Virus record (IMG/VR): IMGVR_UViG_3300034063_001114 | Span: 1 to 24,679 of that record | Length of the DNA: 24,679 bases | From: a virus | Strand: one strand, 5' to 3' | Shown here: positions 98 to 15,567 of the stretch, piece by piece | Position numbering within the stretch: the stretch's first letter is position 1 | How the letters are laid out: each line of letters opens with the position of its first letter | Translations under genes and position numbers: made by a program | Notes under the pieces: model-generated | What the model was told of the DNA's origin: nothing | Seen by the model: only the letters and a program-made list of their open reading frames with translations | Databases searched by the model: none

Positions 98-607
98 CTA
101 CCTGCCCCCGGCTTCCGCCGCCAACTGCCTCCACCGCTGCACAAAAAACGGCAGCGGTGGTTGCGCCTCCAGAGCGGCCCCGATCCAGTTTCGGGGCCGT
201 TCTTTGTCGGACGCAGGTGTGCCCCTCCGCGAAAGCGGGTTGGAGTAGGCGTCAGGGTACGACCCCCGCAGCACCTCCATCGCATACGGCGCTGTCCACG
301 CGATGGTTAGCCTTCCATTGGCAACATGCGGAGGTTGCTGTGATGCCAGCAGCCTTCCGGTGTCGACAATGTCACGCTCGCCTTTCGGGATCAGCACCCG
401 CGGCCCCCCGGAAGTCTGCACGGTCTCGCCGCGCATGAACAGGCTCTGAAACCGCAGCGTCGCATTTGGCCACACCCACTTGACCGTCTTGATCTGTGTC
501 CGCGCCTCCTCCGCGATGATCGGCGCGTAGTCCTCAAGGATCCGGGTGGAACGCTGCACCAGCGCCGCCGCGTTCCACTCCTTGATCACCAGCTTCGTCC
601 GTGCCAT
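98..607 (-). CDS. HK97 gp10-like tail-completion/neck protein
   Basis: 169 aa, basic and without membrane segments. The central part (RDIVDTGRLLASQ, then a beta-rich stretch WTAPYAMEVLRG) has the look of the HK97 gp10-like family, which joins head and tail in siphophages; the DTGxL motif and the later 'APYA' motif are typical of that family. The start ATG shares one base with the stop of the upstream gene (TGATG), so the two are translationally coupled. The family call is from motif memory only. A strong hairpin follows the stop codon. A perfect 9-bp inverted repeat (GTGGAACGC/GCGTTCCAC, 546-578) lies in the N-terminal coding part. Confidence 0.6.
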   Translation of the reverse strand: MARTKLVIKEWNAAALVQRSTRILEDYAPIIAEEARTQIKTVKWVWPNATLRFQSLFMRGETVQTSGGPRVLIPKGERDIVDTGRLLASQQPPHVANGRLTIAWTAPYAMEVLRGSYPDAYSNPLSRRGTPASDKERPRNWIGAALEAQPPLPFFVQRWRQLAAEAGGR

Positions 608-996
608 CAGCTCTGGGTGCGACTCACGAGTCTCACCTTGCTACCTAGCACTCCGGTCAGCACCTCCCCCATCAGCCCGGCCGTCCCGTACGGCAGCCGC
701 GCCTCCAACACCTCACACTCCACCGGATCCGCCCCCGCAAACTCCACCTCCCCGCTGCTCCCCACCACAACCCGCGAGTCGAGCGCCCCCGACGTGATGT
801 AGCCCTCGTACAAGGTGCTCACCACGTTTACCCCGGGGTACGTCGCCTCCGCCACGCTCTCCGCCTTCAGGTACGCCGCGCACTCGACCGTCTCCGTGTT
901 GGCCACAACGTTCCCGGTATCGGGATCCACCGAGGTCCCCGCCGCCGGAACCACAAAGGTCAGCGTCGAGTTCTCCAGAGCCTGCAGCGCCGACAT
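607..996 (-). CDS. Putative head-closure/neck structural protein
   Basis: 129 aa, acidic, rich in Val, Ala, Gly and Thr, with no signal peptide or membrane helix, as expected for a small beta-rich virion protein. It sits immediately before the HK97 gp10-like gene and overlaps it by one base, the usual place of a head-closure (stopper) protein in siphophage neck modules. The ATG at 996 is supported by a promoter-like motif (GGGAAACTAGG, 1030-1020) ending exactly 23 nt upstream, the same spacing seen before four plus-strand virion or lysis genes. The specific role is inferred from position; I do not recognise the family with certainty. Confidence 0.5.
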   Translation of the reverse strand: MSALQALENSTLTFVVPAAGTSVDPDTGNVVANTETVECAAYLKAESVAEATYPGVNVVSTLYEGYITSGALDSRVVVGSSGEVEFAGADPVECEVLEARLPYGTAGLMGEVLTGVLGSKVRLVSRTQS

Positions 997-1019: not shown

Positions 1020-1030
1020 CCTAGTTTCCC
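1020..1030 (-). promoter_or_regulatory. Class L motif upstream of the neck genes
   Basis: GGGAAACTAGG read on the minus strand, 23 nt before the ATG at 996. It faces a plus-strand copy at 1039-1049 and forms an imperfect inverted repeat with it, so it looks like one half of a divergent promoter pair. Confidence 0.55.
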
Positions 1031-1038
1031 ACCCCGCC

Positions 1039-1049
1039 GGAAAACTAGG
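1039..1049 (+). promoter_or_regulatory. Class L motif upstream of the tape measure gene
   Basis: GGAAAACTAGG followed by 23 nt and the GTG start at 1073. The AAAACT part aligns with a -10 box (compare TAACCT in the copy at 8233). It is back to back with the copy at 1020-1030. Confidence 0.6.
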
Positions 1050-1072
1050 ACATAGGAACGCACCCCGCCCCC

Positions 1073-4000
1073 GTGGCCGAGCAGCTAGGCGCAGCAGAAC
1101 TACAGCTAGATGTCAACTCCAGCAACTTCAAGACGAAGCTCGACGCCGCCGAGGCGCAACTTCTCGCCCTGCAGCGTGTAGGCGATTCTGTCGGCACCAG
1201 CCTCAACAATATTTTTGCCAAAGACTACAGAATTAACGTCACCGATAGCCAAGTCGACGCTGCAAACATACGGCTGAACAAAACCTTAGCGAAGCTCCGC
1301 GAGATAACCGCCAACCCGTATAACATCCGCCTCAACTTTATACAATCTGGCGCAGGCACCGGCGGCGGTGGCAAGTTCGATCCCGGCCGCATAGTTGACG
1401 ACGCTATCGAACAAATCCTTAAGGGGGGCCTAAGCGGCCAAGCCGCCGACATCCTCCGCGGCGGCGGTGGTGCGGGCGCCGGCCGCGTGGGCGCCGCCCG
1501 ATCCCAACAACTCCGCGAGACCCTCCTCGCCCGAACGGAACGCGGCAGCCTCGGCGCCGGCGGCTTCAACATCCCCGGCCTCCAAGAGATCGTTCGCCAA
1601 CTCGGCCAGACCCCACTCCCTAAGACAGCCGGCCGCGCCCAGATCCTCAAGCAGGCCCGCGAAACCATCCAGCAGGCAACTGACGCGGTGATTGATCGTG
1701 TCGGACAGAATCTACTCGATCTACAGCTAAACCTAAGGCGCACACAAGGTGCTCAGTCCGGCGGGCTCACTGCCGCCCAAACCCGCAATCTCGACCCGGG
1801 TGGCAGCTACCAAAAAATAATCAACTCACTATCACTTCTTACCGGAGACCCCAAGCGGTATCGCGGGCGTATGGCGTCCGTAGGTCTTGAAAATCTACCT
1901 TCATCTTTGCTTGCATCGGCTCAACGGCAGTTAGAGCTGGAGCAGCTGTCTCCACTAGCCAGGCAAATCCGTTTCCAGACAAAAAGCTCGCCACTAGACA
2001 AAATTATTGACGATGCCTTTTTCGGTAAAGCCAGCATCCCGAAAACCAGCGCGGCTCTGCAGAACCTATCGCGAGCCATCGAGCAGGTAGGTGCTACAGC
2101 CGAAGCCGCAGTACCTGCGGGGATCCTGACAAGCGCAGGCGGGCGGCCTCGTTTCCGTAGGCCCACCGGGTTGCAGCCTGGCACAATCCAGTCGTTGTTC
2201 GGTGCCACGATTCCACCGCCAGCGCCGCCTACACCCCCGGTGCCGCCGCCTCCGCGTAGACCTGCGGCTCCGCCACCCCCACCACCCCCACCCCCACCAC
2301 CCCCACCACCCCCACCACCCCCGCCCCCACCGCCCCCGCCCCCACCACCCCCGCCGCCGCGGCAGCGACCGGCTCCGGCTGCTCCCGCAGCCCCGCAGCA
2401 ACCGTTTCTCCGCGGCTCCGCTAGGGACGCCATCAGCTCCGGCCTCATCGGCTTCGGCTTCCCACTCCTATTTGGCCAAGGGCTTGGCGCGGCAGTCGGC
2501 GGCGGCATCGGCGGCGCCGGTGGCGGCCTGCTCGGCGGCGGCTTCGGCTTCGCACTGAGCATCATCGGCACCGCGGTCGGCTCTCAATTCGACATCATCA
2601 TCAGCAAATCCAAGGATCTCGCCAGCGCCCTGCGCGACCCCATCGCCAACTTCGACCTCCTCAAGCAGAACAGCCAACTTTCCAGCCGCAGCACCGAACG
2701 CTACATCGAAGCCCTCATAAAAGTGGGACGCGAAGGCGAAGCCGCCGCACTTATCCAGCAAGACCTTGCTAACACCTACGGCAACCTCGACGGCGCTCGC
2801 GCTCTGTCTACTGCCCAGGACGACTTAGCGCGGAGCTGGACAAAACTAGGTGGTATCTTGTCCACGCTAGTCCTACCGGGTATCACCGATCTCACAAATG
2901 GAATAGCGGGATTTATTAGCGACCTCAACAAAAACGCAAAGCTAGTTCAAACCACTCCCGGACTTAACGCGCCATCCCCGGAAACAGAGGTGGGTAACTT
3001 CGTCCTTTCCGGTTTCGGCCTCTTTCCGCAAGTTCCGAAAGCCCTGCAGGAAGCCGGCGCCGCAGCACGCAGGTCCCGCACTACTCCGCAACCACCGGCA
3101 CCGCCACCCCCGCCTGAAGTTCTGGAGGCCCAAAAAGATCGCGCCTCCCTACTTAGCAACGAGCTGCGCCTAATCACCGCGCAAACCCAAGGCTACAAAG
3201 AGCAGGAGCTAAGCCTCAAGCTCTCCGTCGCTGCCGACAAAGAGCGCGTCGATCTCGGAGTCCTGAACCTTCGCCAGAAGCAGGCCACCAGCAATGAGGA
3301 ACGCAAGGCTCTCCAAGTCGAGATAGACGCCCGGCGCACACAGACCCTCAAAGAGCGCATCCAGCTCGAAGAGGAGCTTGCCGAAGTGCGGCGCAAGAAC
3401 CGCATCACGCAGGACTTCCGCCCCGCAATCCAGCAGCAGTCGCTCGCCATCATCGACGCCCAGGCTCGGGGCGCCCAGCGGCAAGCCATCATCGAGGAGC
3501 GCCGCCTCGCCACGTTGGAAACCGAGCGGCAGCTCCGCTTGGAGGGAAACCGCGACCCCGTGCGCCGCGGCGAAATCGTGGATCAGGGCCTACTCACCCA
3601 GGCCCGCCTCACCGCCCAACTCAACCAGCTCGACAAGGAGCGGGCCGCCTTCACCCGCCAAACCACCTTCGACGCCCGCGAGCAAGGCCAGGTCGCCCAG
3701 CGCCAACTGGCCTTTGCCCGCCAGCGCCTCGGCCTCGAAACCGGCATAGCCCGCCAGACCCTAGAACAGCGCGAGGCTGTCATCGAGTCGATCGCCGCCG
3801 CCCGCGACCGGCAGAAACGCGCCCAGTTCTCCTTCACTGAGGCCCTGCGCCAGGGCGGCGACACCGGCCAGCAACGTGCCTTCGAGATCGCGTCCAAGGA
3901 CATCCCCGAGGCCGCCCGCCAGCTCCAGCTCAGCCTCATCAACGGCGCCACCGCCCTCAAGGACGCCGGCCGCGAAATCAGCCGCAGCATCGAGGACAAC

Positions 4001-4405
4001 GCCCGCGCCCTCCAGGACCTCTACCTCACCAGCCAGTTCGCCACCGGCGAGCAGCGCCAGCAGGCCCTTACCGACCTCGACCGCCAGGTCCAGGCCGAGG
4101 CCGAGCGCCGCAACATCCGCTTCACCGTCAGTGGAACGGAACAGGAGCGCATCGCCGCCAAGCAGGCGTTCCTAGGTTTCGGCCGCCAGGAGACCGAACT
4201 GCTGAATCAGAGCCGCCAACTTGCCGACGCCCTCGCCATCGCAACCAAACCGATCGTCGATTCCAACGCCGGCCTTATCGGCAGCCAAGCCACCCTCATC
4301 GAGGCCATCAACACCCTCAGCCAAAAGGACTGGAACGTGAATGTGGCGGTAGCCTCGGATGGCACGGTCAAGCCCGCGGGCGATCTAGTCCCCAGCTACC
4401 TGTAG
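1073..4405 (+). CDS. Tail tape measure protein
   Basis: 1110 aa, by far the longest tail gene, which fits the ruler protein that sets tail length in siphophages. The N-terminal part is low-complexity and helical. Residues 400-429 are 30 uninterrupted prolines inside a longer Pro-rich stretch. Residues about 456-504 form a glycine-rich hydrophobic segment (GLGAAVGGGIGGAGG), typical of the membrane-active part of tape measure proteins. Residues about 690-1000 are long Arg/Glu/Gln-rich helices likely to form coiled coils. The GTG start is chosen because a class L motif ends 23 nt upstream. Parts of the gene (about 1200-1330, 1690-2060, 2830-2960) use AT-richer codons than the rest. The chaperone-like gene usually found just upstream is instead about 9 kb downstream. 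Confidence 0.88.
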   Translation: MAEQLGAAELQLDVNSSNFKTKLDAAEAQLLALQRVGDSVGTSLNNIFAKDYRINVTDSQVDAANIRLNKTLAKLREITANPYNIRLNFIQSGAGTGGGGKFDPGRIVDDAIEQILKGGLSGQAADILRGGGGAGAGRVGAARSQQLRETLLARTERGSLGAGGFNIPGLQEIVRQLGQTPLPKTAGRAQILKQARETIQQATDAVIDRVGQNLLDLQLNLRRTQGAQSGGLTAAQTRNLDPGGSYQKIINSLSLLTGDPKRYRGRMASVGLENLPSSLLASAQRQLELEQLSPLARQIRFQTKSSPLDKIIDDAFFGKASIPKTSAALQNLSRAIEQVGATAEAAVPAGILTSAGGRPRFRRPTGLQPGTIQSLFGATIPPPAPPTPPVPPPPRRPAAPPPPPPPPPPPPPPPPPPPPPPPPPPPPPPRQRPAPAAPAAPQQPFLRGSARDAISSGLIGFGFPLLFGQGLGAAVGGGIGGAGGGLLGGGFGFALSIIGTAVGSQFDIIISKSKDLASALRDPIANFDLLKQNSQLSSRSTERYIEALIKVGREGEAAALIQQDLANTYGNLDGARALSTAQDDLARSWTKLGGILSTLVLPGITDLTNGIAGFISDLNKNAKLVQTTPGLNAPSPETEVGNFVLSGFGLFPQVPKALQEAGAAARRSRTTPQPPAPPPPPEVLEAQKDRASLLSNELRLITAQTQGYKEQELSLKLSVAADKERVDLGVLNLRQKQATSNEERKALQVEIDARRTQTLKERIQLEEELAEVRRKNRITQDFRPAIQQQSLAIIDAQARGAQRQAIIEERRLATLETERQLRLEGNRDPVRRGEIVDQGLLTQARLTAQLNQLDKERAAFTRQTTFDAREQGQVAQRQLAFARQRLGLETGIARQTLEQREAVIESIAAARDRQKRAQFSFTEALRQGGDTGQQRAFEIASKDIPEAARQLQLSLINGATALKDAGREISRSIEDNARALQDLYLTSQFATGEQRQQALTDLDRQVQAEAERRNIRFTVSGTEQERIAAKQAFLGFGRQETELLNQSRQLADALAIATKPIVDSNAGLIGSQATLIEAINTLSQKDWNVNVAVASDGTVKPAGDLVPSYL
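2270..2359 (+). repeat. Polyproline-coding CCN tract in the tape measure gene
   Basis: Thirty consecutive proline codons (CCA, CCC, CCG), largely built from CCA/CCC alternations that read as repeated CACCCC units. The tract is in frame and divides the gene between its N-terminal region and the hydrophobic segment. Such a run is prone to length change by slippage and to ribosome stalling. Confidence 0.9.
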
Positions 4406-4412
4406 GTGCCCC

Positions 4413-5180
4413 ATGACGATCACCCTCGGCACCTTCACCACCACCGCCCTCTTGGCCCAACCCTTCGGGTACGAAGGCACCGCTCGCACCGGCCTCACGG
4501 CCCGCACCTTTCGCGTCTCCGGCCTCCTCACCCCCGCGCAGTGGCAGGCCCTAACCACCGAGTACAACACCTGGCGCAACCTCCGCATCACCGACGCCGA
4601 CACCCTCTCCAGTGGAACGGTCGGCACCACCATCGCCCTCACCATCACCCCGGCCAACGGCCTGAGCGTCACCTCGCTGGCCTGTTGGTTTGCCGAGCCA
4701 CCTGAGGGCATCCAAACCGGCGCCTACATCTCTGCGTCGTGCGTCCTCGTCGATGCCGCGCAGGCCCTCGCCGTCCTGCTGCGCGAGGCCGAAAAATCCC
4801 GCCAGAACCAAGAGGCCACCGCCCGCCCAAACCTCGGCACCATCACCTTCACCCGCGCCACCGGCACCAGCCCCATCGTCACCCTCACCTCCCCACCGCA
4901 GACCCGCCGGGACGGTCCCGCCGTAGCCCTGACCTCCACAGGCACCTCGTACGTCACTGGCCCCTTGGTGGCCCACAAGGTCCGCCGCATCGAGGGCTAT
5001 CTGAGCACCGGCACCTACGACGACCTCCTTGCGTGGTACGACGAAACCATCGCCGCGGTGCCCACCGCCACAAGTTGGTTCCCGGTCGATCCACCCACTG
5101 CCACCGCTGAGGTCATCATCTCCGGCGGCGCCAAGTCCACCCGCTACAACGTGACCCTGACCGCCCTGCAGATCCTCTGA
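4413..5180 (+). CDS. Putative distal tail (Dit-like) protein
   Basis: 255 aa, Thr/Ala/Gly-rich and beta-strand-like throughout, with no membrane segment. It follows the tape measure gene after 7 bases and overlaps the next tail gene by one base (TGATG), so it lies in the tail-tip part of the operon, where siphophages encode the distal tail protein. The N-terminal half (ARTFRVSGLLTPAQWQALTTEY, residues about 30-51) and the C-terminal half (YNVTLTALQIL) look like two beta domains with an Ala/Glu-rich helix between. The function is inferred from order; no family is recognised with certainty. Confidence 0.5.
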   Translation: MTITLGTFTTTALLAQPFGYEGTARTGLTARTFRVSGLLTPAQWQALTTEYNTWRNLRITDADTLSSGTVGTTIALTITPANGLSVTSLACWFAEPPEGIQTGAYISASCVLVDAAQALAVLLREAEKSRQNQEATARPNLGTITFTRATGTSPIVTLTSPPQTRRDGPAVALTSTGTSYVTGPLVAHKVRRIEGYLSTGTYDDLLAWYDETIAAVPTATSWFPVDPPTATAEVIISGGAKSTRYNVTLTALQIL

Positions 5181-8100
5181 TGACTGTAGACATTCGCGCC
5201 ACGGTCACCTGCTCGCTGGGCACCCTCGTCCGCGGCAGCATCAGCGACGACTACCTCCAGGGCAACGGCCTCATCCGCACCCGCGGCAGCGTCATCATCA
5301 GTGGAACGATCACCCCTGCCATCGGCACGATCGTCACCTTCTCCTACATCAAAGGCGGCGTAACCCGCAACATCCCCCGCAAGCTCCGCGTCCTTTCCAG
5401 CTTCGCCGATCCCTACCGCCGCACCACCTCAGTCGAACTGGGCTGCAAGCTCACCTACCTGTCCGACCTCCGCCCCGCCGTCAACTGGACGGTCTTCAAC
5501 GACCCCGGAAACTCCGCCTACACGCAGGACGACTCCAAGGTCGTAACGCTGCCGATTCGGGCCGCCAACGTGATGAACGAGTGCCTCGCCAACCTCGGCA
5601 TCACCGCCAGCAGCAACCCCCTCACCAACACCTTCAGCATCGGGTCGTTCGACTTCAGCGCCGGTTTTGTCGATGTCCTCTCCGACCTCCTCGTATCCGA
5701 GTGTTACTGCGGCTACCTAACCTATAACGAAGTCCTACAAATTGTAGACCTAAAAGCTACCGGTGGTTCGGGGCGAGTCTACACAGAGTCCAACATCATA
5801 GACCACGGCCCCATCAACAGTGGTCAGCTCCCCGGCGAAGCTGTAACCGTCAACTACAGCACTATGAAGCTGAAACCACCCGACCCGGCCGAACCGGTTA
5901 CCACGAGAGACCGCCGCAACTGGGAGTACGAGATCACCCAAGCCGGCCCAAACTATTACTACATCGGTAACAGAACCTACACGGGTATCGAAACGGTCAC
6001 AACAAGAATAAGCTATGCGCCTATCGGCGATATAGATGTCCCCGTCCGGCGTGTGTCATCCGAAATCGGATCGACCGCCAAAGTAGCCGGAAGCATAGCA
6101 ACCGCATACGTCAACAACAACATAGGTTTTGGTGCTACCCGTACCGAACTACGCCAGGAAGTGGAAACCACTAGATACGACAAGGAAGGTAACCGCGTCC
6201 GCACAGAGATTGAAGTCTTCGAGAACGTTCTAGCTTTCTACGGAAGCGTCAGTCTTGACTACGTGTTCCCAAGTACCCGTGCTGGCGGATCCCCGTCGTA
6301 CGTCATATTCCCAAGCTCGGGACAGCGCCGACGCGAAAGAACAACTATAACCTATCGCCGAATTGGCGAAGCGGAACAACAAACGACTCAGACCTACGTG
6401 GCGTGGCTCGTCAGCACACCCGGTCAACAAGCCATCGCTGAAAACCGCGCCAACCTGACCACGGCCGCAGCGGTCGCTGCATTCCTGAATAAAGCCTCAT
6501 CGGCGGGGCTTGTTCTTGAGCGCAACATCGTCACTATCAACACTCGCAACACCATCCCAGGTCGTCCACGCAGCACCGCCGCCGCCGCCCTAGCCAAGAA
6601 AGGCGATCCCGCCAACAACTACCGACAAGTCAGCACCGCAAAACTACAACTTGCCCTAGGCAGTGGAACGGCCCAGCGCCGCATTGAGTTCTCCATGCCC
6701 TATGCACCCGACGACCAATTCGTCGGTCCTGCTGGGGGACCTTTCAGCGTCATCGTCAGCGACGCCCCACAGAAAGCCACCAACTTTGGGCGCGTCCAGA
6801 ACCGCCTAGCCTTGGGCAACCGCAACGGGATCAACCTCCAGATTGCTCCCGAGCTGCTCCAGGAAGCCCCCTTCGCCCCGATGTACGTCGCGGCCAACGG
6901 CCTCACCGCTCAGTACCGCGCCAATGGCAACCAGTGGTCGTTCGACTCCAACGGCATCGTCTGCAGCACCGACGCCCTCTTCTGGGCCGCTGTCGGTGGA
7001 ACGGGCACCTTCTGGTTCCCCGTGGCCCCCGGTATCACCACCCTCCCCACCACCCCTGCCCCCGTTGACGGCATCCTCACCCCGGGCACAACAATTCCAC
7101 CATATAACGAAACGGTAGAAATCCGGGCTGCGGTGGGGCCGGTACTCAACGTCACCCCACTGCCCTACAGCCTGAAGCCTGTCCTTACCGTGCTCAGCCC
7201 GCTCAAGCTGCGCACAACCCTGAGCGTGGCACGCATCCGCAAGGTCGAAATCCCCACGGCCAGCATCACTGTCACCGCCCACAACCCCGAAATCCTGGGC
7301 AGCGCCGCCAACATAATGATCCCGGAGATAAACGTCGCTGTCACCGCCCACGCCCCCGAATACGTGGTGCGCCCCAAGCTGCTGGTCCCCATCCCCGCGG
7401 CCGGCATCACCGTCGCCGCCCTGCCGCCGACAATCTCCACAGGCGCCGCTGTCGAAATCCCCGCCAGCACCATCACCGTGGCCGCACTCGCTCCGGCCTA
7501 TGTCGGCATGAGCAGCGACCCGTACATCGCCAACGTCTCTCTCCTGTTCCACATGGATGGAGCGAACAACAGCACCACCGTCATCGACAGCTCCCCCTCC
7601 CCGAGCACCGTCACCGTCTACGACGGAGCCAAGCTGAGCACCACCGAGAGCAAGTTTGGCGGCGCCTCCGCCTTCTTCGATGGAACGACCGCCTACATGA
7701 CCACCCCGTCCAACGCCAACGTCCGCTTCGGCACCGGCGACTTGACCATCGAGGGCTGGATCCACCGCAAGGCAAGCTGCCCCAACGGCGGCATCATCTG
7801 CGCAACCTACGATTTTGGTGTATCCGTGAACTTCGCAGTCTGCCTCGGCGACGTTGGCGCAAACCACTTCCTGCACGCAGGTTTCTACGACGGTGCGTGG
7901 AACTGGATAGCCGACACCGTGGACATCCCGCTCGATCAGTGGGTCTTCTTCGCCTACGTGCGTAAGGGCACAACTTTCTCCCTCTATAAGGACGAGAACC
8001 TCGTCGGCACGATCACCCGCAGCGGCACCCTCCCCGGCGCCGATATGCCCACCCGCATCGGCCGCGGATGGGACAGCCAGCGCTTCTTCAACGGCTACCT

Positions 8101-8227
8101 CGACGAGATCCGCGTCACAAAGGGCGTGGCTCGCTACGAAACGGGCACCGGCGCCAACGCGAACAAGATCGTGTTCGCCGGCACCAACACCCTTGCCCTA
8201 CCGACTGCCCCATTCCCTGATGCTTGA
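5180..8227 (+). CDS. Tail-tip/receptor-binding protein with C-terminal LamG-type domain
   Basis: 1015 aa. Residues 1 to about 230 resemble a baseplate-hub or tail-tip protein (beta-rich start, then helices and a Cys-containing strand region, CYCGYLTYNEVL). A long middle region uses clearly AT-richer codons (AGA, ATA, CTA) from about 5700 to 6440. Residues about 687-775 hold four repeats of about 22 residues with the core IPxxxITVxAxxP. Residues about 785-990 are a concanavalin A/LamG-like domain (LLFHMDG start, FDGTTAYM, DLTIEGWI, GYLDEIRVTKGVARY end), a fold used by phage tail proteins to bind cell-surface glycans. Start ATG overlaps the upstream stop by one base. The gene is the best candidate for the host-range determinant in this window. 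Confidence 0.75.
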   Translation: MTVDIRATVTCSLGTLVRGSISDDYLQGNGLIRTRGSVIISGTITPAIGTIVTFSYIKGGVTRNIPRKLRVLSSFADPYRRTTSVELGCKLTYLSDLRPAVNWTVFNDPGNSAYTQDDSKVVTLPIRAANVMNECLANLGITASSNPLTNTFSIGSFDFSAGFVDVLSDLLVSECYCGYLTYNEVLQIVDLKATGGSGRVYTESNIIDHGPINSGQLPGEAVTVNYSTMKLKPPDPAEPVTTRDRRNWEYEITQAGPNYYYIGNRTYTGIETVTTRISYAPIGDIDVPVRRVSSEIGSTAKVAGSIATAYVNNNIGFGATRTELRQEVETTRYDKEGNRVRTEIEVFENVLAFYGSVSLDYVFPSTRAGGSPSYVIFPSSGQRRRERTTITYRRIGEAEQQTTQTYVAWLVSTPGQQAIAENRANLTTAAAVAAFLNKASSAGLVLERNIVTINTRNTIPGRPRSTAAAALAKKGDPANNYRQVSTAKLQLALGSGTAQRRIEFSMPYAPDDQFVGPAGGPFSVIVSDAPQKATNFGRVQNRLALGNRNGINLQIAPELLQEAPFAPMYVAANGLTAQYRANGNQWSFDSNGIVCSTDALFWAAVGGTGTFWFPVAPGITTLPTTPAPVDGILTPGTTIPPYNETVEIRAAVGPVLNVTPLPYSLKPVLTVLSPLKLRTTLSVARIRKVEIPTASITVTAHNPEILGSAANIMIPEINVAVTAHAPEYVVRPKLLVPIPAAGITVAALPPTISTGAAVEIPASTITVAALAPAYVGMSSDPYIANVSLLFHMDGANNSTTVIDSSPSPSTVTVYDGAKLSTTESKFGGASAFFDGTTAYMTTPSNANVRFGTGDLTIEGWIHRKASCPNGGIICATYDFGVSVNFAVCLGDVGANHFLHAGFYDGAWNWIADTVDIPLDQWVFFAYVRKGTTFSLYKDENLVGTITRSGTLPGADMPTRIGRGWDSQRFFNGYLDEIRVTKGVARYETGTGANANKIVFAGTNTLALPTAPFPDA
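7240..7505 (+). repeat. Four imperfect protein repeats between hub and LamG domain
   Basis: The translated repeats share IPxxxITVxAxxP-like cores: VEIPTASITVTAHNPE, IMIPEINVAVTAHAPE, VPIPAAGITVAALPP and VEIPASTITVAALAP. They probably form a beta-strand stalk connecting the tail tip to the lectin domain. DNA identity between copies is modest, so they are old or diversified. Confidence 0.7.
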
Positions 8228-8232
8228 GCGCC

Positions 8233-8243
8233 GGTAACCTAGG
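8233..8243 (+). promoter_or_regulatory. Class L motif upstream of the 8267 structural gene
   Basis: GGTAACCTAGG followed by 23 nt and the GTG start at 8267. It contains a perfect TAnnnT -10 hexamer (TAACCT) and lies in the 39-base gap after the tail-tip gene. Confidence 0.55.
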
Positions 8244-8266
8244 TGTAGATCCGTGCGCGTTCCGCA

Positions 8267-8701
8267 GTGGCGACGATTGCTCTATACAACCACTCGACAC
8301 GGTTGTTCGCCAACGGCACCTTCACCGCCGCCGACACCTACAGGGTCAAGCTGCTCACCGCCGCCACGTTCGACGCAACCGACGTAACCCTCGCCGACAC
8401 CGGCGGCACCGAGGTCGCCAACGCCAACGGCTACACCACCAACGGCGTCGCTCTGACCGGCGTAGCGTTCACCACCGTCACCACCAACGACGCCAAGCTC
8501 GACGCCAACGACGCCTCTTGGACCGCTACCGGCGGCTCCATCACTGCCTCCTACGGCATCCTCTACAACGACACCAACGTCGATAACGCCCCCATCGCCT
8601 TCCTCGACTTCGGCGGGTCGGAAACGGCAAACTCCGGGACCGACTTCCGCGTTGTGTGGAACGCCAACGGTATCGTAACTTGGACCTACAGCGGAGTCTG
8701 A
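8267..8701 (+). CDS. Small virion/tail-associated protein
   Basis: 144 aa, Thr/Asn/Ala/Asp-rich and beta-strand-like, beginning MATIALYNHSTRLFANG. Proteins with this start and this composition occur among structural genes of many tailed phages, but I cannot name the function. The GTG start is supported by the class L motif ending 23 nt upstream. It is followed after one base by the 134-aa gene, which looks like a distant relative: similar length, a [Y/L][R/K]V[K/M]L strand early on and an NGY[T/V] motif in the middle. Confidence 0.7.
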   Translation: MATIALYNHSTRLFANGTFTAADTYRVKLLTAATFDATDVTLADTGGTEVANANGYTTNGVALTGVAFTTVTTNDAKLDANDASWTATGGSITASYGILYNDTNVDNAPIAFLDFGGSETANSGTDFRVVWNANGIVTWTYSGV

Positions 8702-8702
8702 T

Positions 8703-9107
8703 ATGGCCATCACCGCCACCATCAGCCGGCGCGAGCTGAAGCGCCTTGCGGGCCTAGGCTACGAAGGCGAGACCCTCAAGGTCATGCTCTGCGAAGTCGG
8801 CATGACCGGCTACACCGCCGAGAGCACCGTCGCCAACTGGCAGTCGGTCGAGCTGAGTGGTAACGGCTATGTCCGCTACTCCGAGGTCATCGGCACCGGC
8901 ACCTACAGCGAAACCACCGCCAGCTACAACATGCCAACGGTGGATGCCGAGTTCACCGCCACCGGCGATGGTTACAGCTACGACCGCATCATCGCCTACA
9001 TCGATGGGGAGACCTACATTTACTCCGAGACCGTCGAAGACCCCAACGTGACCATGGCCGCCGGCCAGACCCAGACCTACCGAATCGAACTGGCCATCGA
9101 TGACTGA
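8703..9107 (+). CDS. Small virion protein, possible paralog of its upstream neighbour
   Basis: 134 aa, acidic, Thr/Tyr-rich and beta-like, with ETLKVMLCEVG near the N-terminus and NGYVRYSEV in the middle. These stretches align loosely with YRVKLLTAA and NGYTTNGVAL of the preceding protein, so the two may descend from one fibre-associated module. It overlaps the next gene by one base (TGATG). The exact function is unknown; a virion role is inferred from context. Confidence 0.65.
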   Translation: MAITATISRRELKRLAGLGYEGETLKVMLCEVGMTGYTAESTVANWQSVELSGNGYVRYSEVIGTGTYSETTASYNMPTVDAEFTATGDGYSYDRIIAYIDGETYIYSETVEDPNVTMAAGQTQTYRIELAIDD

Positions 9108-9940
9108 TGGCCACCAATCTCAGCGTCAGTGTCACCGGCCACGGCCTAGTCGAGCGCTCCAAGCAGCAGCAGCGTGACGCCCGCACCGGCCGCCTAACCC
9201 GCGAGGCCATCACCCGCGACGCCGAAACCAACCGCGAGGAAATCCTTCGCGCCGCCGCCTCCCAGCCGGCCCTATCCCGCGCCCTGGCCCCCTCCCGCCC
9301 CATCGACACCGAAACCGCCCCATACTTCCGCGTAAACCGCCCCGCTGCTTCGCGCCTCCCGGATAAGGCGTTCATGCTAGTCGTCTATAAGAACATAGAG
9401 TTCACAAGGCTGTATTCATTCCGCGTTAGATTGACAGACTCTAGAGACAGATCAACAGTTCTTAACGGGGAACTTACTTTTTCTGACCCGAACGCGACAA
9501 ATAAAACGTACCTATTCCTTCCGCAAGGGCGACGGCTAACCCACTTTAGGCGCAGTCGCCCCTTCCCCGCAATTAACGGCACCACATTGATGAACCCCAC
9601 TTTCAACAGCATCAATGAGGCAGTCGGGTCCTTAGGCCGCCGCATAGACTACGTGGAACCCCCCTACAGTCTGCGCCCGTTCAAACCGGATCCGAGTGAG
9701 ACCTACACAGTCACTCTCCAGCCTATGGGCATTTCCGAAAATCCTCTACTTTTAGGTAGCGGCGGTGTGATAACTGGGTACTTCGACAAGCCTACCTACT
9801 CCGTGAACATATGGAACTTCTATGACGGTGCCGTAGAGTTTAATCCGGTGAACATTGCGCGTGGTGTTAGATGGGGCGTTACAACGGACGCCATACACCT
9901 CGGCGTCGGCGACTACTACCCACCCGGGTATCCGTCCTGA
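9107..9940 (+). CDS. Putative tail/virion protein with composition break
   Basis: 277 aa. Residues 1 to about 85 are Arg/Ala-rich and helical and encoded with the GC-rich codons of the neighbourhood. From about base 9365 to the end the DNA is visibly AT-richer (AGA, ATA, TTT, AAA codons) and the protein becomes aromatic and beta-rich (Tyr/Phe/Pro, ending YYPPGYPS). This suggests an N-terminal attachment part joined to a variable or acquired C-terminal domain. I do not recognise the C-terminal family. The start overlaps the upstream stop (TGATG). Confidence 0.65.
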   Translation: MATNLSVSVTGHGLVERSKQQQRDARTGRLTREAITRDAETNREEILRAAASQPALSRALAPSRPIDTETAPYFRVNRPAASRLPDKAFMLVVYKNIEFTRLYSFRVRLTDSRDRSTVLNGELTFSDPNATNKTYLFLPQGRRLTHFRRSRPFPAINGTTLMNPTFNSINEAVGSLGRRIDYVEPPYSLRPFKPDPSETYTVTLQPMGISENPLLLGSGGVITGYFDKPTYSVNIWNFYDGAVEFNPVNIARGVRWGVTTDAIHLGVGDYYPPGYPS

Positions 9941-9961
9941 GCGTTTTACGTCCCGGTCAGC

Positions 9962-10087
9962 ATGAACTCCCCAGACCCCCGCGCCCTCATCAAGCAGGCC
10001 CAGCAGCAAACCCAGGCCGCCCGCTACGCGCAGGCGCTGCGCGAGGCCAACCTGCGCATCATCAAACAGGTGGTGCGCAAAGGCTGA
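9962..10087 (+). CDS. Hypothetical 41-aa helical protein
   Basis: A 41-residue reading frame (MNSPDPRALIKQ start, IIKQVVRKG end) sits 21 bases after the previous gene. The composition (Gln, Ala, Arg, Lys; no Gly until the last residue) predicts one long basic helix, and the codon use matches the surrounding genes. It fills the gap between the tail gene and the next promoter. It could be a minor virion or assembly peptide; nothing more can be said. Confidence 0.45.
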   Translation: MNSPDPRALIKQAQQQTQAARYAQALREANLRIIKQVVRKG

Positions 10088-10090
10088 CCG

Positions 10091-10098
10091 GCTACACT
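10091..10098 (+). promoter_or_regulatory. Class E promoter-like box before the chaperone-like gene
   Basis: GCTACACT (TACACT as -10, fitting TAnnnT) lies 25 nt before the GTG at 10124. It overlaps a small palindrome, GGCTA-CACTGT-TAGCC (10090-10105), so an operator or a start-site hairpin is possible. Confidence 0.5.
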
Positions 10099-10123
10099 GT
10101 TAGCCAGTAACTGCCGACTCCTC

Positions 10124-10699
10124 GTGCTGCCATACGTCCAGCCCCCCGCTGCCGCCACCCGCCGCATTGGTAACGAGCACTCCGGCATCATCGAAATGGA
10201 GATCCGCGGCGGCCTCACCGTCAAGGAGTCCCGCATGATCTCGGCCATGTTGGCGGAGCACGAATCCGCTCTGGTGGCTAGCGCCAAGCTGGCCGACGCC
10301 ATCGCCACGGCCGAGAACATCACCATCACGGAAGCCTTCGACATCGTGCAGGCGGCCGTGCGCGGCGCCGACCTGGAGACCGCGGCCCGCGCCATCATGC
10401 TGCGCCACGCCGCCGAAATCGCCAAAATCGCCAACCTCCTTCAGAGCAGCAACGACCTCCCCGACGAGGCCACCGTCACCACGCTCATCCAGACCCGCTG
10501 CAACCGCCCCGACTGGTCCCACGCTGACACTCTCGGCCTCGATGGAGCGATCTTCCGAGGAATCCTGGAGTTCGCCGCCGCGGAGCAGGCCGCCGAGAAC
10601 ATGCCCGCCTCCCGCCCCTCTGAGGACGAGCTAAAAAAGCCGCCGCAGGACAGCGCGGAAACCCCCAAACGCCGTGGGACGAAATCTTCTGGGACCTAG
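10124..10699 (+). CDS. Tail assembly chaperone-like protein, short (0-frame) form
   Basis: 191 aa, mostly helical (VKESRMISAMLAEHES, then ENITITEAFDIVQAAVRG), with a charged, proline-containing tail (KKPPQDSAETPKRRG) that looks like non-conserved read-out beyond a frameshift site. A helical small protein with a -1 slippery site near its 3' end followed by a long start-less reading frame is the signature of the lambda gpG/gpGT type chaperones, which bind the tape measure protein during tail assembly. The assignment is by architecture, not by sequence identity. The GTG start is supported by the class E box 25 nt upstream. Its place after the tail-tip genes rather than before the tape measure gene is unusual. 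Confidence 0.62.
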   Translation: MLPYVQPPAAATRRIGNEHSGIIEMEIRGGLTVKESRMISAMLAEHESALVASAKLADAIATAENITITEAFDIVQAAVRGADLETAARAIMLRHAAEIAKIANLLQSSNDLPDEATVTTLIQTRCNRPDWSHADTLGLDGAIFRGILEFAAAEQAAENMPASRPSEDELKKPPQDSAETPKRRGTKSSGT

Positions 10700-11289
10700 C
10701 CCACGGCTTCCCAGGCCAGTTCCACCGCACCACCTTTGAGGACGAGCTTCGCGGCGTCGTCCTCGCTGCTTGGCGCCATCTCCAGCGCATCCAGCACGAT
10801 CAGGCGCACCTCCACGAGCTGCCCATCGCCGCCCTCCAAGCCCTAACCGCCAACATCAACCGCGACACCAAGTCCCGCCCCAAGGCGTTCACGACTGCCG
10901 AGTTTGTCATCTTCCGCCGCAGCGAGACCGACGACACCCTCCTACCCGGTCCCGTTGCCGCCACCGCCCTCGCCCTCCGCGCCGAGCACAAGGACTCCCC
11001 CATCCTGCTGGCCGCATGGGATCAGATACTCGCCAGCGCCGACGAGACCGCCCGCCCACCCCACATCCGCGCTCTCCACTCCGACGACAAACAGGTTTGG
11101 GTCCTCTGCCCCGAGTGGGAAGGTCCCAACATCCGCGGCGGCCTCGTGGCAGTCGGTGACCACCTTCACGGCCCCATCCGCCTCCGTGACGTGGATCGCC
11201 CCCTCTCCACTTACACGGTCGTCCTCCCTGACCGCCGCACCTTCGCGTGGCTGGAGGCCGGCCTCCTCCTGCAGACCCGGGAAAACTAG
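10124..11289 (+). CDS. Tail assembly chaperone-like protein, -1 frameshift fusion
   Basis: Codons up to Lys172 are read in frame 0. A -1 slip on A AAA AAG (10633-10639) continues at 10639 into a frame that is open from 10624 to the TAG at 11287-11289, giving a product of about 388 aa. The -1 frame has no ATG or GTG for several hundred bases, yet it shows strong coding character: a clean, globular sequence (DEIFWDLAHGFPGQFHRTTF, later WVLCPEWEGPNIRGG) with normal codon use for this genome. That frame therefore needs frameshifting to be translated. An SD-like AGGA at 10623-10626 lies just upstream of the slip site, as in known bacterial -1 sites. The stop codon lies inside the class L motif of the next gene. 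Confidence 0.7.
10633..10639 (+). other. -1 programmed frameshift slippery heptamer
   Basis: AAAAAAG in the register A AAA AAG relative to the 10124 frame (codons CTA AAA AAG). This is the most efficient class of bacterial -1 slippery heptamer. Frame 0 ends 57 nt later; the -1 frame runs on for 216 codons. Confidence 0.75.
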
Positions 11290-11290
11290 G
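11280..11290 (+). promoter_or_regulatory. Class L motif upstream of the 11314 gene
   Basis: GGAAAACTAGG followed by 23 nt and the GTG start at 11314. It overlaps the last two codons and the stop of the frameshifted reading frame. Confidence 0.58.
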
Positions 11291-11313
11291 CACAGGCCCC
11301 CTGCAGTGGTGCG

Positions 11314-11766
11314 GTGAACATCCTGCAGCTCCGCGCCGAGATAGAAGACCTCCTCGCCGACGAGCTGGGCGTCTACACCCTGCCCAACGGCGAGACCACC
11401 CCAGCCATCTCCGTCCGCGCCGATGGCGAGGCCCTCCCCGCCGGAACCACCGCCGAGGGCCTAGAGGTCGTCATCATCCGCGACCCCGACCTCACCCCAA
11501 TCCTGCAATACTCCGAGGCCGGCACTCTCAAGCGGTGGATCATCTTCCTCGTGGTGTGGAGCACCTACGTCGAGGTCGAAGTCGCCGCCGCCAAGCTGAT
11601 CTACGCCTACGCCGGTAGCCGCCTCGACACCGTTCCGGTCCCGCGTGGCACCGGCCCCATCAGCCAAACCCGCCTCGTCATCCCGAGTCCTCCGCCGCCT
11701 GTCGAAGTCCCGGCGGGCGAGGGCGTCTACGTCCCCGACGTGTTCGAGGTCGGGGTCTTCGTCTAA
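11314..11766 (+). CDS. Putative virion protein (neck/tail-terminator-like position)
   Basis: 150 aa. A helical N-terminus (ILQLRAEIEDLLADELGVY) is followed by a beta-rich domain (EVVIIRDPDLTPILQYSEAG, RWIIFLVVWSTYVEVEV) and a proline-bracketed acidic tail (SPPPPVEVPAGEGVYVPDVFEVGVFV). A small alpha/beta protein of this length in a structural operon would fit a tail terminator or tail-completion protein, but I cannot assign it firmly. The GTG start is fixed by the class L motif 23 nt upstream. Confidence 0.6.
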   Translation: MNILQLRAEIEDLLADELGVYTLPNGETTPAISVRADGEALPAGTTAEGLEVVIIRDPDLTPILQYSEAGTLKRWIIFLVVWSTYVEVEVAAAKLIYAYAGSRLDTVPVPRGTGPISQTRLVIPSPPPPVEVPAGEGVYVPDVFEVGVFV

Positions 11767-11778
11767 CCACCGGCCACA

Positions 11779-11789
11779 GGAAAACTAGG
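11779..11789 (+). promoter_or_regulatory. Class L motif upstream of the lysis cassette
   Basis: GGAAAACTAGG, 22 nt before a GTG at 11812 and 16 nt before a GTG at 11806. The spacing rule seen at the other four copies favours 11812 as the start. Confidence 0.55.
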
Positions 11790-11811
11790 TCAGAAGACCG
11801 CTTCCGTGCTT

Positions 11812-12015
11812 GTGGGACCTGAGCTACTCGCCGCCGGGATTGCCGCGATCGGGCTCAGCGGCGCAGGCGTCGCCGCCCTCTGGAAGATCGCCAACGGCCT
11901 GGGCAAGTTCGAGGCCCGCACCACCACGATCCTCAGCGGCATCCAGGAGATGCTGAGCGACCACGAGCAGCGCCTCCGATACGTGGAACGCCGCGCCCCC
12001 GACGGCGACCGCTGA
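11812..12015 (+). CDS. Small membrane protein, holin-like
   Basis: 67 aa with one N-terminal hydrophobic segment (LLAAGIAAIGLSGAGVAALWKIA) and a charged helical C-terminus (EARTTTILSGIQEMLSDHEQRL...RR). One transmembrane helix plus a soluble helix fits small phage holins or spanin-like accessory proteins, and the gene lies two positions before the endolysin. The GTG at 11812 is preferred over 11806 because of the class L spacing. No family is recognised; the lysis role is inferred from context. Confidence 0.6.
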   Translation: MGPELLAAGIAAIGLSGAGVAALWKIANGLGKFEARTTTILSGIQEMLSDHEQRLRYVERRAPDGDR

Positions 12016-12061: not shown

Positions 12062-12268
12062 ATGCCAGTCGTGAGCTACTTGATCGACAACTGGCGGCAG
12101 GTCTTCGAGGTCGTTATCGCGGCCCATGCCGTGGCCTTGCTGGTCGTCAACCTTACCCCTACCCCAAAGGACGACCGGGCCGTGGGCGCAATCGGAGCTG
12201 CCCTGCCCAAGCTCTACCGAGCCCTCGAAATCCTCGCCGGGATCGTGCTACCCATGGCCAAGCGCTGA
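12062..12268 (+). CDS. Small membrane-associated protein upstream of the endolysin
   Basis: 68 aa with one hydrophobic segment (VFEVVIAAHAVALLVVNL), then TPTPKDD and a second amphipathic helix ending in a basic tail. Small proteins with an NLTPTPKDD-like loop are common next to phage endolysins and are candidate holins. An in-frame ATG at 12032 would add ten residues; 12062 is preferred because a GTAGCAT -10-like box overlaps the upstream ATG and would lie 28 nt before 12062. Neither start has a clear SD. The gene ends 4 nt before the endolysin ATG. Confidence 0.6.
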   Translation: MPVVSYLIDNWRQVFEVVIAAHAVALLVVNLTPTPKDDRAVGAIGAALPKLYRALEILAGIVLPMAKR

Positions 12269-12272
12269 GCCG

Positions 12273-13427
12273 ATGACCTACGCCTCCGTCCGCACCGCCG
12301 TAGAGCACGCCATCCGCCAAGGCCATCTGCTCCCGCACCAGCTCGCCGCTTTCGAGGCCCTCGACCGCGATCTGACCGCAACCCAGCGCCAGACCTTCAC
12401 CGACGACTGGCGCTCCACCGGCAGCCCCGCAGCCGCCGCCACCCCCATCTGGATGGCCCCTGCCCGCGCCATCGTCAAGGAGTTCGAGGCGTGCCACCTA
12501 CGGGCTTCCCTCGACCCCGCCAACGCTTGGACCCTGGGGTGGGGCCACACCGGCCTCGATGTCCGCGAAGGCGTCGCCATCACCCAAGCCCAGGCCGACA
12601 CCCTCCTCGATCAAGACCTCACCTACTTCGCCGAGGGCATCCACCGCCTCCTCCCCGGCGCCAACAAGCTCGGCGGCAGGCAGCAGGCCGCCCTGATTTC
12701 CTGGGCCTTCGACGTGGGCCTCGCCGCGGTGGACACCAGCATGTTGCGCCGCCGCATCCTCGCGGGCGAGTCGTACGTCACCGTCATCCCGCAGGAGCTG
12801 CCGCGGTGGAACAAGGCGGACGGCATCGTCATGGTCGGGATGGTCCGCCGCCGCGCCGCGGAGGTGGCTCTCTTTGTCGGCAACACAGGCCGCACCAACC
12901 CGCTGCCAGTTCCCTACTTCGCGCAGCTCGACAGCAAGACCGATCAGGGCCGCCGCATGTGCTTCTCCAGCTCGTGCGCCATGCTGCTCGCATTTTTGAA
13001 ACCTGACCTCCTCACGGGCCCCAACGGCGACGATCAGTACCTCGCCCGGGTCCGCAGCTTCGGCGACACCACGAGCCCCTTGGCCCAAACCCGCGCCCTC
13101 GCGTCGTACGGCCTCTCCGCTGAGTACATCCAGAACGCCGACTTCGCTCTGGTGGAGCGCCTGATCGATGCCGGCATCCCTGTGCCCTGCGGCTACCTCC
13201 ATCGCGGCCCCGTATCCGCTCCCGCGGGCGGCGGCCACTGGCTCACCATCGTGGGCTACACCCCAACCCACGTCATCGTCCACGATCCACTCGGCGAGGC
13301 CGACCTCGTAACCGGAGCAACAATCGATCGCCCTGCCCGTTTCTGTCGCTACAGCCGCGAGAACTTCGGCCGCCGCTGGATGGTCGAGGGCCGCGGCAGC
13401 GGCTGGGCAATCGTCGCCAAGCGCTAG
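12273..13427 (+). CDS. Bifunctional endolysin: GH24 lysozyme plus C39-like peptidase
   Basis: 384 aa. Residues 1 to about 45 are a helical leader module. Residues about 65-205 are a T4/P22-type lysozyme that cuts the glycan strands of peptidoglycan: the catalytic triad spacing E-x8-D-x5-T is exact (Glu72, Asp81, Thr87, in FEACHLRASLDPANAWT) and is followed by GWGHTG. Residues about 215-384 match a papain-like C39_2 peptidase: Gln in PYFAQLD, Cys230 in RRMCFSSSC, His322 in GGGHWLTIVGY and Asp338 in VHDPLGE. The second domain may cut peptide cross-links or process another protein. The ATG at 12273 directly follows the small membrane gene; the open frame extends further upstream but overlaps that gene, so a longer start is unlikely. 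There is no signal peptide, so export depends on a holin. Confidence 0.85.
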   Translation: MTYASVRTAVEHAIRQGHLLPHQLAAFEALDRDLTATQRQTFTDDWRSTGSPAAAATPIWMAPARAIVKEFEACHLRASLDPANAWTLGWGHTGLDVREGVAITQAQADTLLDQDLTYFAEGIHRLLPGANKLGGRQQAALISWAFDVGLAAVDTSMLRRRILAGESYVTVIPQELPRWNKADGIVMVGMVRRRAAEVALFVGNTGRTNPLPVPYFAQLDSKTDQGRRMCFSSSCAMLLAFLKPDLLTGPNGDDQYLARVRSFGDTTSPLAQTRALASYGLSAEYIQNADFALVERLIDAGIPVPCGYLHRGPVSAPAGGGHWLTIVGYTPTHVIVHDPLGEADLVTGATIDRPARFCRYSRENFGRRWMVEGRGSGWAIVAKR

Positions 13428-13454: not shown

Positions 13455-13721
13455 ATGGCACAGGCCGATTGGATGATCCCGCGCCCATCCTTGGCGGCTC
13501 AGGCCCAACTGGAATACAGCCTGCGGGTGCTGCAAGCAGAAGGACCTGCCGAATGCGACAAGGTGCTATCCATCGCCGCCGATCTCATGCGCCAAAACAT
13601 GCACTACAAAACTCTACTCAATCAAGCCATTGCCCACATCACCCAGTTGGAAGCGTTGGCAGCTCTGCACGATCGTACTCCTGCTCTATGCGACTCATGT
13701 AAAGCCGTAGTCGATTCGTAG
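13455..13721 (+). CDS. Hypothetical small helical protein; weak NblA-like pattern
   Basis: 88 aa, almost all helix, beginning MAQADWMIPRPSLAAQAQLE and ending with a CxxC motif (LCDSCKAVVDS). The central pattern (QLEYSLRVL, a short loop, then RQNMHYKTLLNQA) resembles in spacing the two-helix phycobilisome-degradation adaptor NblA, which some cyanophages carry, but identity is low and an unrelated helical hairpin is equally possible. A class E box lies 24 nt upstream. The last 83 bases overlap the 3' end of the sigma factor gene on the other strand. Confidence 0.55.
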   Translation: MAQADWMIPRPSLAAQAQLEYSLRVLQAEGPAECDKVLSIAADLMRQNMHYKTLLNQAIAHITQLEALAALHDRTPALCDSCKAVVDS

Positions 13722-14574
13722 CCTTCGTGTAGACCTGCAAAACCCGCTGCCGGCTGACGCCATGGGCCTTCCCAATATCCGACCAATTCTGCGCCGTGTA
13801 CCCGTCAAGCCCTAGCCTCCTGTTCACGATGTCCCGATCGCGCTCAGGCAATCTCACCACTGCCTGCATGATCAGGCCAATTCTCTCCTCCTGAACCATG
13901 TTGTCGAGCGGCCCCTCGCCCTCCACGTCATCCGTGAGCGTGTTGACGATGGAGGTCCCATCGCCCTCCCGCACAACCAAGTCGAGCGACACCGGCGGCT
14001 GTCCCCGCTCCAAGTAGAGCAACACATCCTGCGGAGTCACACCGAACTCCTCCGCGATCTCGTCGGTGGTGGGCGCCCTGCCCAGCTCCATCCGCAACCG
14101 CTGCGTTCTAGCGCCCCAGTTCGCCGCCATATCTCCGATCTTCCCGGGCATATGCACCGATCGATCCTTCTTGATGATGGCGCGTGTGATGCCCTGTCGG
14201 ATCCACCAATAGGCATAGGTCGAGAACTTATACCCCATCGATGGGTCGTAGCGGTGGACCGCCGTGATGAGGCCGATGTTGCCCTCCTGCACCAGATCCA
14301 TCAGGTCCATGCTCTTGGTGACGCGGCTGTAGCGCTTGGCGCAGGACACCACGAGCCGCAGATTGCTGCGCACAAACTTGCGCTCCGCCCGCTCCCCAAG
14401 CGCCACCTCCCGCCGCTCCTGCTGCGTCAGTTCCCGCTCCATCGCCTTGAGTTCCTGTGCTCTGCGCACCTTCCTCCCGAGGTCGATCTCCTGATCGGGA
14501 GTCAGCAGCGGCACCCGCCCGATCTCGTTGAGGTAGGCGTGCGACGTGCTTTCGCCGGTTGTCCGAGTCTTCAT
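13639..14574 (-). CDS. Phage-encoded sigma-70 family (group 2 type) sigma factor
   Basis: 311 aa with region 1.2 (SHAYLNEIGRVPLLTPDQEI, residues about 11-30), region 2 with the RNA polymerase core-binding and -10 recognition helices (DLMDLVQEGNIGLI, then GYKFSTYAYWWIRQGITRAI), region 3 (about 160-210) and region 4 with a helix-turn-helix (NWSDIGKAHGVSRQRVLQV) after LPERDRDIVNRRLGL. It lacks the long region 1.1 of the housekeeping factor, like cyanobacterial group 2 sigmas. It would redirect host RNA polymerase to phage promoters. The start overlaps the thyX stop by four bases (ATGA), so it is the last gene of the replication operon. It departs from the usual motif after TRAI (KKDRSVHMPGKI). 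Confidence 0.9.
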   Translation of the reverse strand: MKTRTTGESTSHAYLNEIGRVPLLTPDQEIDLGRKVRRAQELKAMERELTQQERREVALGERAERKFVRSNLRLVVSCAKRYSRVTKSMDLMDLVQEGNIGLITAVHRYDPSMGYKFSTYAYWWIRQGITRAIIKKDRSVHMPGKIGDMAANWGARTQRLRMELGRAPTTDEIAEEFGVTPQDVLLYLERGQPPVSLDLVVREGDGTSIVNTLTDDVEGEGPLDNMVQEERIGLIMQAVVRLPERDRDIVNRRLGLDGYTAQNWSDIGKAHGVSRQRVLQVYTKATNRLRLYMSRIEQEYDRAELPTLPTG

Positions 14575-15323: not shown

Positions 15324-15339
15324 TGTAGGTAGGCTCCTC
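15316..15339 (-). repeat. Junction repeat 1 (third paralog / thyX)
   Basis: 24-bp sequence, identical to the copy at 15560-15583. Read on the minus strand it encodes EEPTYND-stop of the upstream gene, and its GAGGAG serves as SD ten bases before the ATG of thyX, which starts within it; the two genes overlap by 8 bases. Confidence 0.85.
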
Positions 15340-15567
15340 CACAATGAACACAGAAACACCTTCGCAGCCTTCCGGCATGTGTGAGGGCTTAATGGCCTTT
15401 GCTATGGCATAAGCATCGTTAAGATCGGACCATGTGCTAACATCTTCCGGTTTGAGCGTCGTGATAATAGTGTCGTTACCCCTTCCAACGTAGTAGACGT
15501 AGGGTACATCTATACCTGGAAAGTAAAACCGCACGCCATATCGCGTGACTGTTTTTGTGTCAGTCAT
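15316..15567 (-). CDS. Tandem small paralog 3 of 3, hypothetical
   Basis: 83 aa starting MTDTKTVTRYGVRFYF and ending VEEPTYND. It is the most diverged of three tandem relatives: it keeps TRYGV at the start, the W near residue 46 and the EEPTYND end, but loses the EDACTW block of the other two. It overlaps its upstream neighbour and thyX by 8 bases each. No known family is recognised; small soluble alpha/beta fold likely. Codon use is AT-richer than in the structural genes. Confidence 0.75.
   Translation of the reverse strand: MTDTKTVTRYGVRFYFPGIDVPYVYYVGRGNDTIITTLKPEDVSTWSDLNDAYAIAKAIKPSHMPEGCEGVSVFIVEEPTYND

Follow-up and report, generated by a model that had tools for sequence, protein, structure and literature searches.

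A putative late promoter without a -35 element and its pairing with a short phage sigma factor in cyanosiphoviruses and uncultured relatives

The stretch of DNA analysed here (the window) is the whole IMG/VR virus record IMGVR_UViG_3300034063_001114, which comprises 24,679 bases with a GC content of 63%. It has no end repeats and is therefore probably a fragment. Judging from the nearest named phages only, its host would be cyanobacterial. A 49.6-kb contig, G003, is approximately 95% identical to the window over the shared stretches and extends it on both sides. The main features of the window are compiled in Table 1. A family search with the 1110-aa protein regarded as the probable tape measure gave no match. 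Just 5' of the endolysin gene lies a small ORF (11806-12015; GTG at 11812, 67 aa), which possibly encodes a holin. Region 10699-11169 is open on both strands, with an ORF of 129 aa on the plus strand and a frame of 157 codons on the minus strand (drawn from G003); this frame has matches of 36-56% in the contigs G004, G005, G018, and G026. The nearest named relatives of the long sigma factor are found in cyanosiphoviruses such as KBS-S-2A and S-CBS1, and neither of these two phages carries the motif described below in front of its genes. Adjoining the long sigma gene is a gene for a ThyX-type thymidylate synthase (14571-15359, minus strand). Synechococcus phage S-H1, in which no sigma factor was found, has a match 74% identical to the ThyX of G003. 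Many long-type phage sigma factors (L017-L055 and similar loci) combine a canonical region 2.4 (YAYWWIRQ) with a shortened or rebuilt region 4.2, for example ISKTRLQNLEKRG, which suggests that recognition of the -35 element was lost or changed in a large group of phages.

Table 1. Features of the window. Distances run from the last motif base to the start codon; hexamers, transcription starts, and promoter targets are predictions.
Feature	Position	Strand	Evidence	Predicted elements and targets
129-aa late gene	607-996	-	ORF conserved in all motif-bearing relatives	Control by the divergent promoter
Predicted late promoter core GGGAAACTAGG	1020-1030	-	Exact match; 23 nt before ATG at 996; kept before orthologs	-10 hexamer 1028-1023; start ~1016; genes 607-996 and 98-607 (minus strand)
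Predicted late promoter core GGAAAACTAGG	1039-1049	+	Exact match; 23 nt before GTG at 1073	-10 hexamer 1041-1046; start ~1053; probable tape measure gene 1073-4405
Probable tape measure, 1110 aa	1073-4405	+	Size, position, conservation	Control by the 1039-1049 promoter
Tail/baseplate-type genes	5180-8227		Family matches	
Predicted late promoter core GGTAACCTAGG	8233-8243	+	Exact match; 23 nt before GTG at 8267	-10 hexamer 8235-8240; start ~8247; 144-aa gene 8267-8701
Predicted late promoter core GGAAAACTAGG	11280-11290	+	Exact match; 23 nt before GTG at 11314	-10 hexamer 11282-11287; start ~11294; 150-aa gene 11314-11766
Predicted late promoter core GGAAAACTAGG	11779-11789	+	Exact match; 22 nt before GTG at 11812	-10 hexamer 11781-11786; start ~11793; 67-aa ORF at 11812 and lysis cluster
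Endolysin (lysis cluster)	12126-13427			
Long sigma factor, 311 aa (regions 1.2, 2, 3, 4)	13639-14574	-	Pfam and PHROG matches	

Five exact matches to the motif GG[A/G/T]AA[A/C]CTAGG are present on the two strands of the window. The original prediction had read them as a late promoter, and both their positions and their distances to the start codons (23, 23, 23, 23, and 22 nt) were re-found exactly. For the slightly looser pattern GGNAANCTAGG, five occurrences compare with 0.13 expected from an order-3 Markov model of the window. The motif is informative in its exact form only, because tolerating two mismatches gives 21 matches in the window against 19.8 by chance. Between two start codons that lie 76 nt apart, the divergent copies at 1020-1030 and 1039-1049 are arranged back to back.

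The search was extended beyond the window to related phages, which are represented by mostly incomplete metagenomic contigs with start codons taken from gene calls and N-terminal conservation. G003 contains 11 copies against 0.21 expected, all of them 19-23 nt before late genes, and there are none in its replication block of approximately 24 kb. The genes preceded comprise one with a head-fibre match, those for the scaffold and portal, a 114-aa gene 5' of the terminase, the lysis cluster, two genes of the tail region, the probable tape measure gene, the divergent 129-aa gene, a 253-aa tail-protein gene, and a 121-aa gene. Thus, the claim that the motif precedes virion and lysis genes only and spares the replication region holds for all 11 sites of G003. 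More distant contigs carry 10 (G005), 8 (G004), 4 (G017), and 4 (G018) copies, and the motif read backwards is absent from these four; the numbers expected in G003, G005, and G004 are 0.1-0.3. In G005 (47.6 kb), positions 1-190 recur at 47415-47605 and the motifs at 129-160 recur at 47551-47582; as the start of this contig is repeated at its end, it probably represents a complete genome.

An unbiased scan for words overrepresented in front of called genes, which replaced a plain word count swamped by coding bias, ranked the motif at the top in G003, G005, G004, G018, G001, and G002. In the more distant G034, the same scan brought up variant forms, GGCAACTTAG and GGCAACCTCG, in comparable positions. 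Comparison of orthologs revealed that the site is kept before the same genes and that the remaining upstream DNA differs; for instance, the site at 11280-11290 is retained before the orthologs of the 150-aa gene in G005, G004, G018, and G026. For eight late genes in 81 contigs of related phages, the motif was found in all 170 distinct upstream regions, compared with 8 in a reversed-sequence control. The divergent motif pair is conserved as well, with 0-10 nt between the motifs across clades. The fixed distance to the start codon that had originally been noted applies to the close clade of the window and breaks down in the wider set of relatives, where the distance is mostly 17-27 nt with outliers at 14 nt, at 31-32 nt, and, for one gene in one clade, at 2 nt.

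Counted from the first motif base, the conserved bases are G1 G2 n A4 A5 n Y7 T8 A9 G10 (G11), followed by an A-rich position 15 that is A in 59% and C in 3% of the sites. The invariance of some columns in the alignment of the relatives' sites, including A4 and T8, is partly imposed by the search pattern. In the cultured phages P-SS2, S-CBS2, and S-CRES1, position 5 is no longer constrained to A, and TATACT, AATACT, CATACT, CATCCT, or AACCCT occupies bases 3-8. In -10 hexamers recognised by sigma-70, the most important positions are the second, A at -11, and the last, T at -7. The hexamer embedded in the window copies (AAAACT or TAACCT) had been described as a weak -10 element, and this fits well with the forms TATACT, AATACT, CATACT, and CATCCT that occupy the same slot in S-CBS2, S-CRES1, and P-SS2. 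Distant clades have C or T in place of the A of CTAG (base 9), so that the register depends on A4 and T8. The alternative register, in which the TAG of CTAGG supplies the "TA" of a -10 element, was rejected because of the same variation at base 9, whereas the A and T of the preferred register are kept.

Upstream of the motif, the aligned sites have no conserved columns that could represent a -35 element. A canonical sigma-70 promoter was rejected, as there is no signal approximately 17 nt upstream of the -10 element, where the -35 element would stand. A required -35 element is disfavoured because nothing is conserved upstream and because back-to-back motifs only 0-10 nt apart leave no room for it. 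The motif was also considered as an ECF-like -35 element with leaderless transcription from the annotated codon; no -10 element is conserved 12-17 nt after the motif, and the distances in relatives are too variable for this arrangement. The 129-aa gene of 23 contigs has its start codon 2 nt past the 11-mer. This position is close to where transcription is predicted to begin and suggests that the message of this gene is leaderless.

A second, short sigma-like protein of 181 aa is encoded in the virion module of G003 (46514-47059, minus strand; L122:6514-7059), approximately 680 nt past the left edge of the window. It matches phrog_351 (5.8e-14) and the Pfam family Sigma70_r2 (PF04542), and the latter match was obtained for 28 of 29 short-sigma relatives; none of the 29 matched region 4. 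Its best relative of solved structure by sequence is SigB of S. aureus. The AlphaFold model (pLDDT 76) is all helical and ends soon after region 3-like helices; in comparison with the PDB, it retrieved mainly sigma factors, with a modest best E-value (2e-3) and probabilities near 1. T4 gp55 was absent from the PDB sequence matches and from the top listed fold matches. The C-terminus carries a conserved "PTPW(D/E)xLE" tail, and one may speculate by analogy to the tail of gp55 that it binds a partner. Relatives of the short sigma were detected by a profile scan in 129 viral contigs. Distant homologs occur in the cultured phages P-SS2 (gp003; homologous to the 181-aa protein, hhalign 97%), S-CBS2 (gp077), and S-CRES1 (gp20); these P-SS2-type proteins, whose C-termini were examined by using Pfam, are longer (206-244 aa). 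A scan of bacterial and archaeal genomes gave one close match only, a 61% identical short sigma on a 3.3-kb contig binned as Rhodoferax (L270; JAURGS010000261.1). This contig probably is a stray phage fragment and therefore gives no host. Directly 5' of the start of the short sigma gene, several clades share a conserved GTTAGGCTG...ATG arrangement. This element looks like a TANNNT -10 box with a near-leaderless start and possibly links an earlier to the late gene class.

The short sigma is the sole conserved regulator-like gene that tracks the motif. Strict sites (GGNANNCTAG, 14-35 nt before starts) number 1-11 per genome in all 11 genomes that possess the short sigma, and no strict site so placed exists in any of the 16 genomes with the long sigma only. 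In the first genome set, a profile search (E<1e-80) detected the short sigma in G002, G003, G004, G005, G016, G017, G018, G026, and G034 and in no other genome of that set, and hence in motif genomes only. The unbiased scan of upstream words places GGNANNCT among the top words of P-SS2, S-CBS2, and S-CRES1, mostly 18-27 nt before structural genes, and the site generalises to GGNANNCTAG across genomes including these cultured phages. Orthologs of the 144-aa gene at 8267 are preceded by the motif in phages with the short sigma; where no short sigma was found, most of them lack the motif and instead show a ribosome site of the GGAG type immediately in front of the start codon.

Simple shared ancestry of the head genes fails to explain this pairing, because phages with close heads lack both partners and phages with distant heads have both. 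The major capsid proteins of KBS-S-2A, S-H1, and MED4-184 are 50-59% identical to that of G003, yet these phages have neither motif sites nor the short sigma. Conversely, neither the capsid nor the terminase of G003 has a match in P-SS2, S-CBS2, and S-CRES1, and the portal is only 22-24% identical, yet both the sites and the short sigma are present in these phages. The motif is also missing before the genes of S-2L, which like S-H1 and MED4-184 is close in some virion genes. A tail gene that adjoins the short sigma gene is distantly common to P-SS2, S-CBS2, and S-CRES1, and the tail module and the short sigma may thus have travelled together. Moreover, the co-occurrence partly reflects linkage, as the short sigma adjoins the genes it would control.

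The reading proposed here, which we consider very probable, is an extended -10 late promoter that lacks a -35 element and is read by the host RNA polymerase with the short phage sigma. GG would form the extended -10 element at about -14/-13, bases 3-8 (nAnnYT) the -10 hexamer with near-invariant A(-11) and T(-7), and the subsequent AG(G) the discriminator. Transcription would start approximately 7 nt after the hexamer, around base 15 and often at A, and the leaders in the window would then measure approximately 19-20 nt. The reader would be the host polymerase equipped with region 2 and the following helical part of the short sigma but without a region 4, and the absence of a -35 element fits such a sigma. 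The promoter role that we infer from sequence comparison has strong comparative support. The copy placement, the conservation before late genes, and the co-occurrence with the short sigma also bear out the earlier suggestion that a dedicated factor reads this late promoter.

Alternatively, the long sigma of the window might read the late promoter by means of an altered -35 recognition helix. This protein is a genuine sigma whose region 4 contains unusual residues (SRQRVLQVY), and the fuller motif-bearing genomes (G003, G004, G005, G026, and G034) encode it. However, homologous long sigmas also occur in the 16 genomes without strict motifs before genes, and nothing resembling a -35 element is conserved in the DNA preceding the motif. 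A role of the long sigma in reading the motif thus appears unlikely, and it probably serves another gene class. The motif might also be the site of a phage activator that recruits the host RNA polymerase, in which case the short sigma would travel with it through linkage or act as its partner. Phages commonly drive late promoters with activators, and eleven conserved bases are long for a -10 region. Such an activator is quite improbable, however, as no separate -10 or -35 element is conserved near the motif and the only conserved regulator-like gene that tracks it is the short sigma; furthermore, the drift of the slot to TATACT and AATACT in S-CBS2 and S-CRES1 would be expected of a -10 element.

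If the motif acted at the RNA level, as a signal for translation or processing in late 5' leaders, this would be in line with the near-fixed distance between motif and start codon in the clade of the window and with the lack of an obvious ribosome site at most of the motif-preceded genes. On the other hand, the divergent copies stand back to back in the 76-nt gap, in which nothing else is conserved that could provide the promoters, the distances vary among relatives, and the signature tracks a sigma factor; a signal in RNA is therefore highly improbable. The compactness of the element and the AT-rich patch just downstream would also suit a promoter of a T7-type single-subunit RNA polymerase. 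The probability of this option is close to nil: 11 contigs including near-complete genomes gave no match to PF00940, a result to be read with the fact that the control genomes were unmatched too, and the motif is tracked by a sigma factor instead.

The proposed short-sigma promoter resembles several known systems in part. T4 gp55 offers a clear precedent; it is a small sigma whose similarity to other sigma factors is confined to domain 2 and which acts at late promoters with the help of gp33 and the sliding clamp gp45 (PMC2988020). Like gp55, the short sigma is a small phage protein of the sigma-70 family with only domain 2 recognisable, without domain 4, and predicted to recognise -10-type late promoters. 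The promoter sequence differs from that of T4, however, and the short sigma lies closer to the SigB/SigF type; the likeness to gp55 is one in kind. The -10 promoters of bacteria that are extended by TGn (TGn-TATAAT) are comparable in that they need no -35 element and are recognised by sigma region 2 and the segment that follows it, as is predicted here. In the phage motif, by contrast, GG directly precedes the hexamer, which is weak (e.g. AAAACT), and the predicted sigma is a dedicated one. Late promoters have also been defined from sequence in the cyanomyovirus Ma-LMM01; unlike the sites described here, they are SigA-like with a -35/-10 pair and involve no phage sigma (PMC5780444). P-SS2 has two sigma genes, of which the group 3 ("type III") sigma gp003 was proposed to recognise a particular regulon, with no sequence named (PMC2784084). 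This protein is a homologous short sigma, although at 214 aa it is longer than the 181-aa protein and distant in sequence, and P-SS2 also has a group 2 sigma and GGNANNCTAG sites before structural genes. A search of the open literature, with subscription papers outside its scope, found no promoter for these short sigmas.

Taken together, cyanosiphoviruses and their uncultured relatives probably share a widespread late system, in which a short SigF-like sigma is paired with GGnAnnYTAG. The sequence would have drifted and the pairing been kept across unrelated head modules, and one clade would be leaderless for one structural gene. A second, group 3-type sigma has been known in cyanosiphoviruses since 2009 (PMC2784084), and a specific predicted promoter can now be offered for it. 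As the same pairing exists in the cultured P-SS2, S-CBS2, and S-CRES1 and in many uncultured relatives, the predicted switch is testable in cultured phages. The motif also provides a sequence rule for the late transcription units of uncultured viruses. Finally, such a compact pair of promoter and sigma would offer a simple means of studying -10-only transcription in cyanobacteria.
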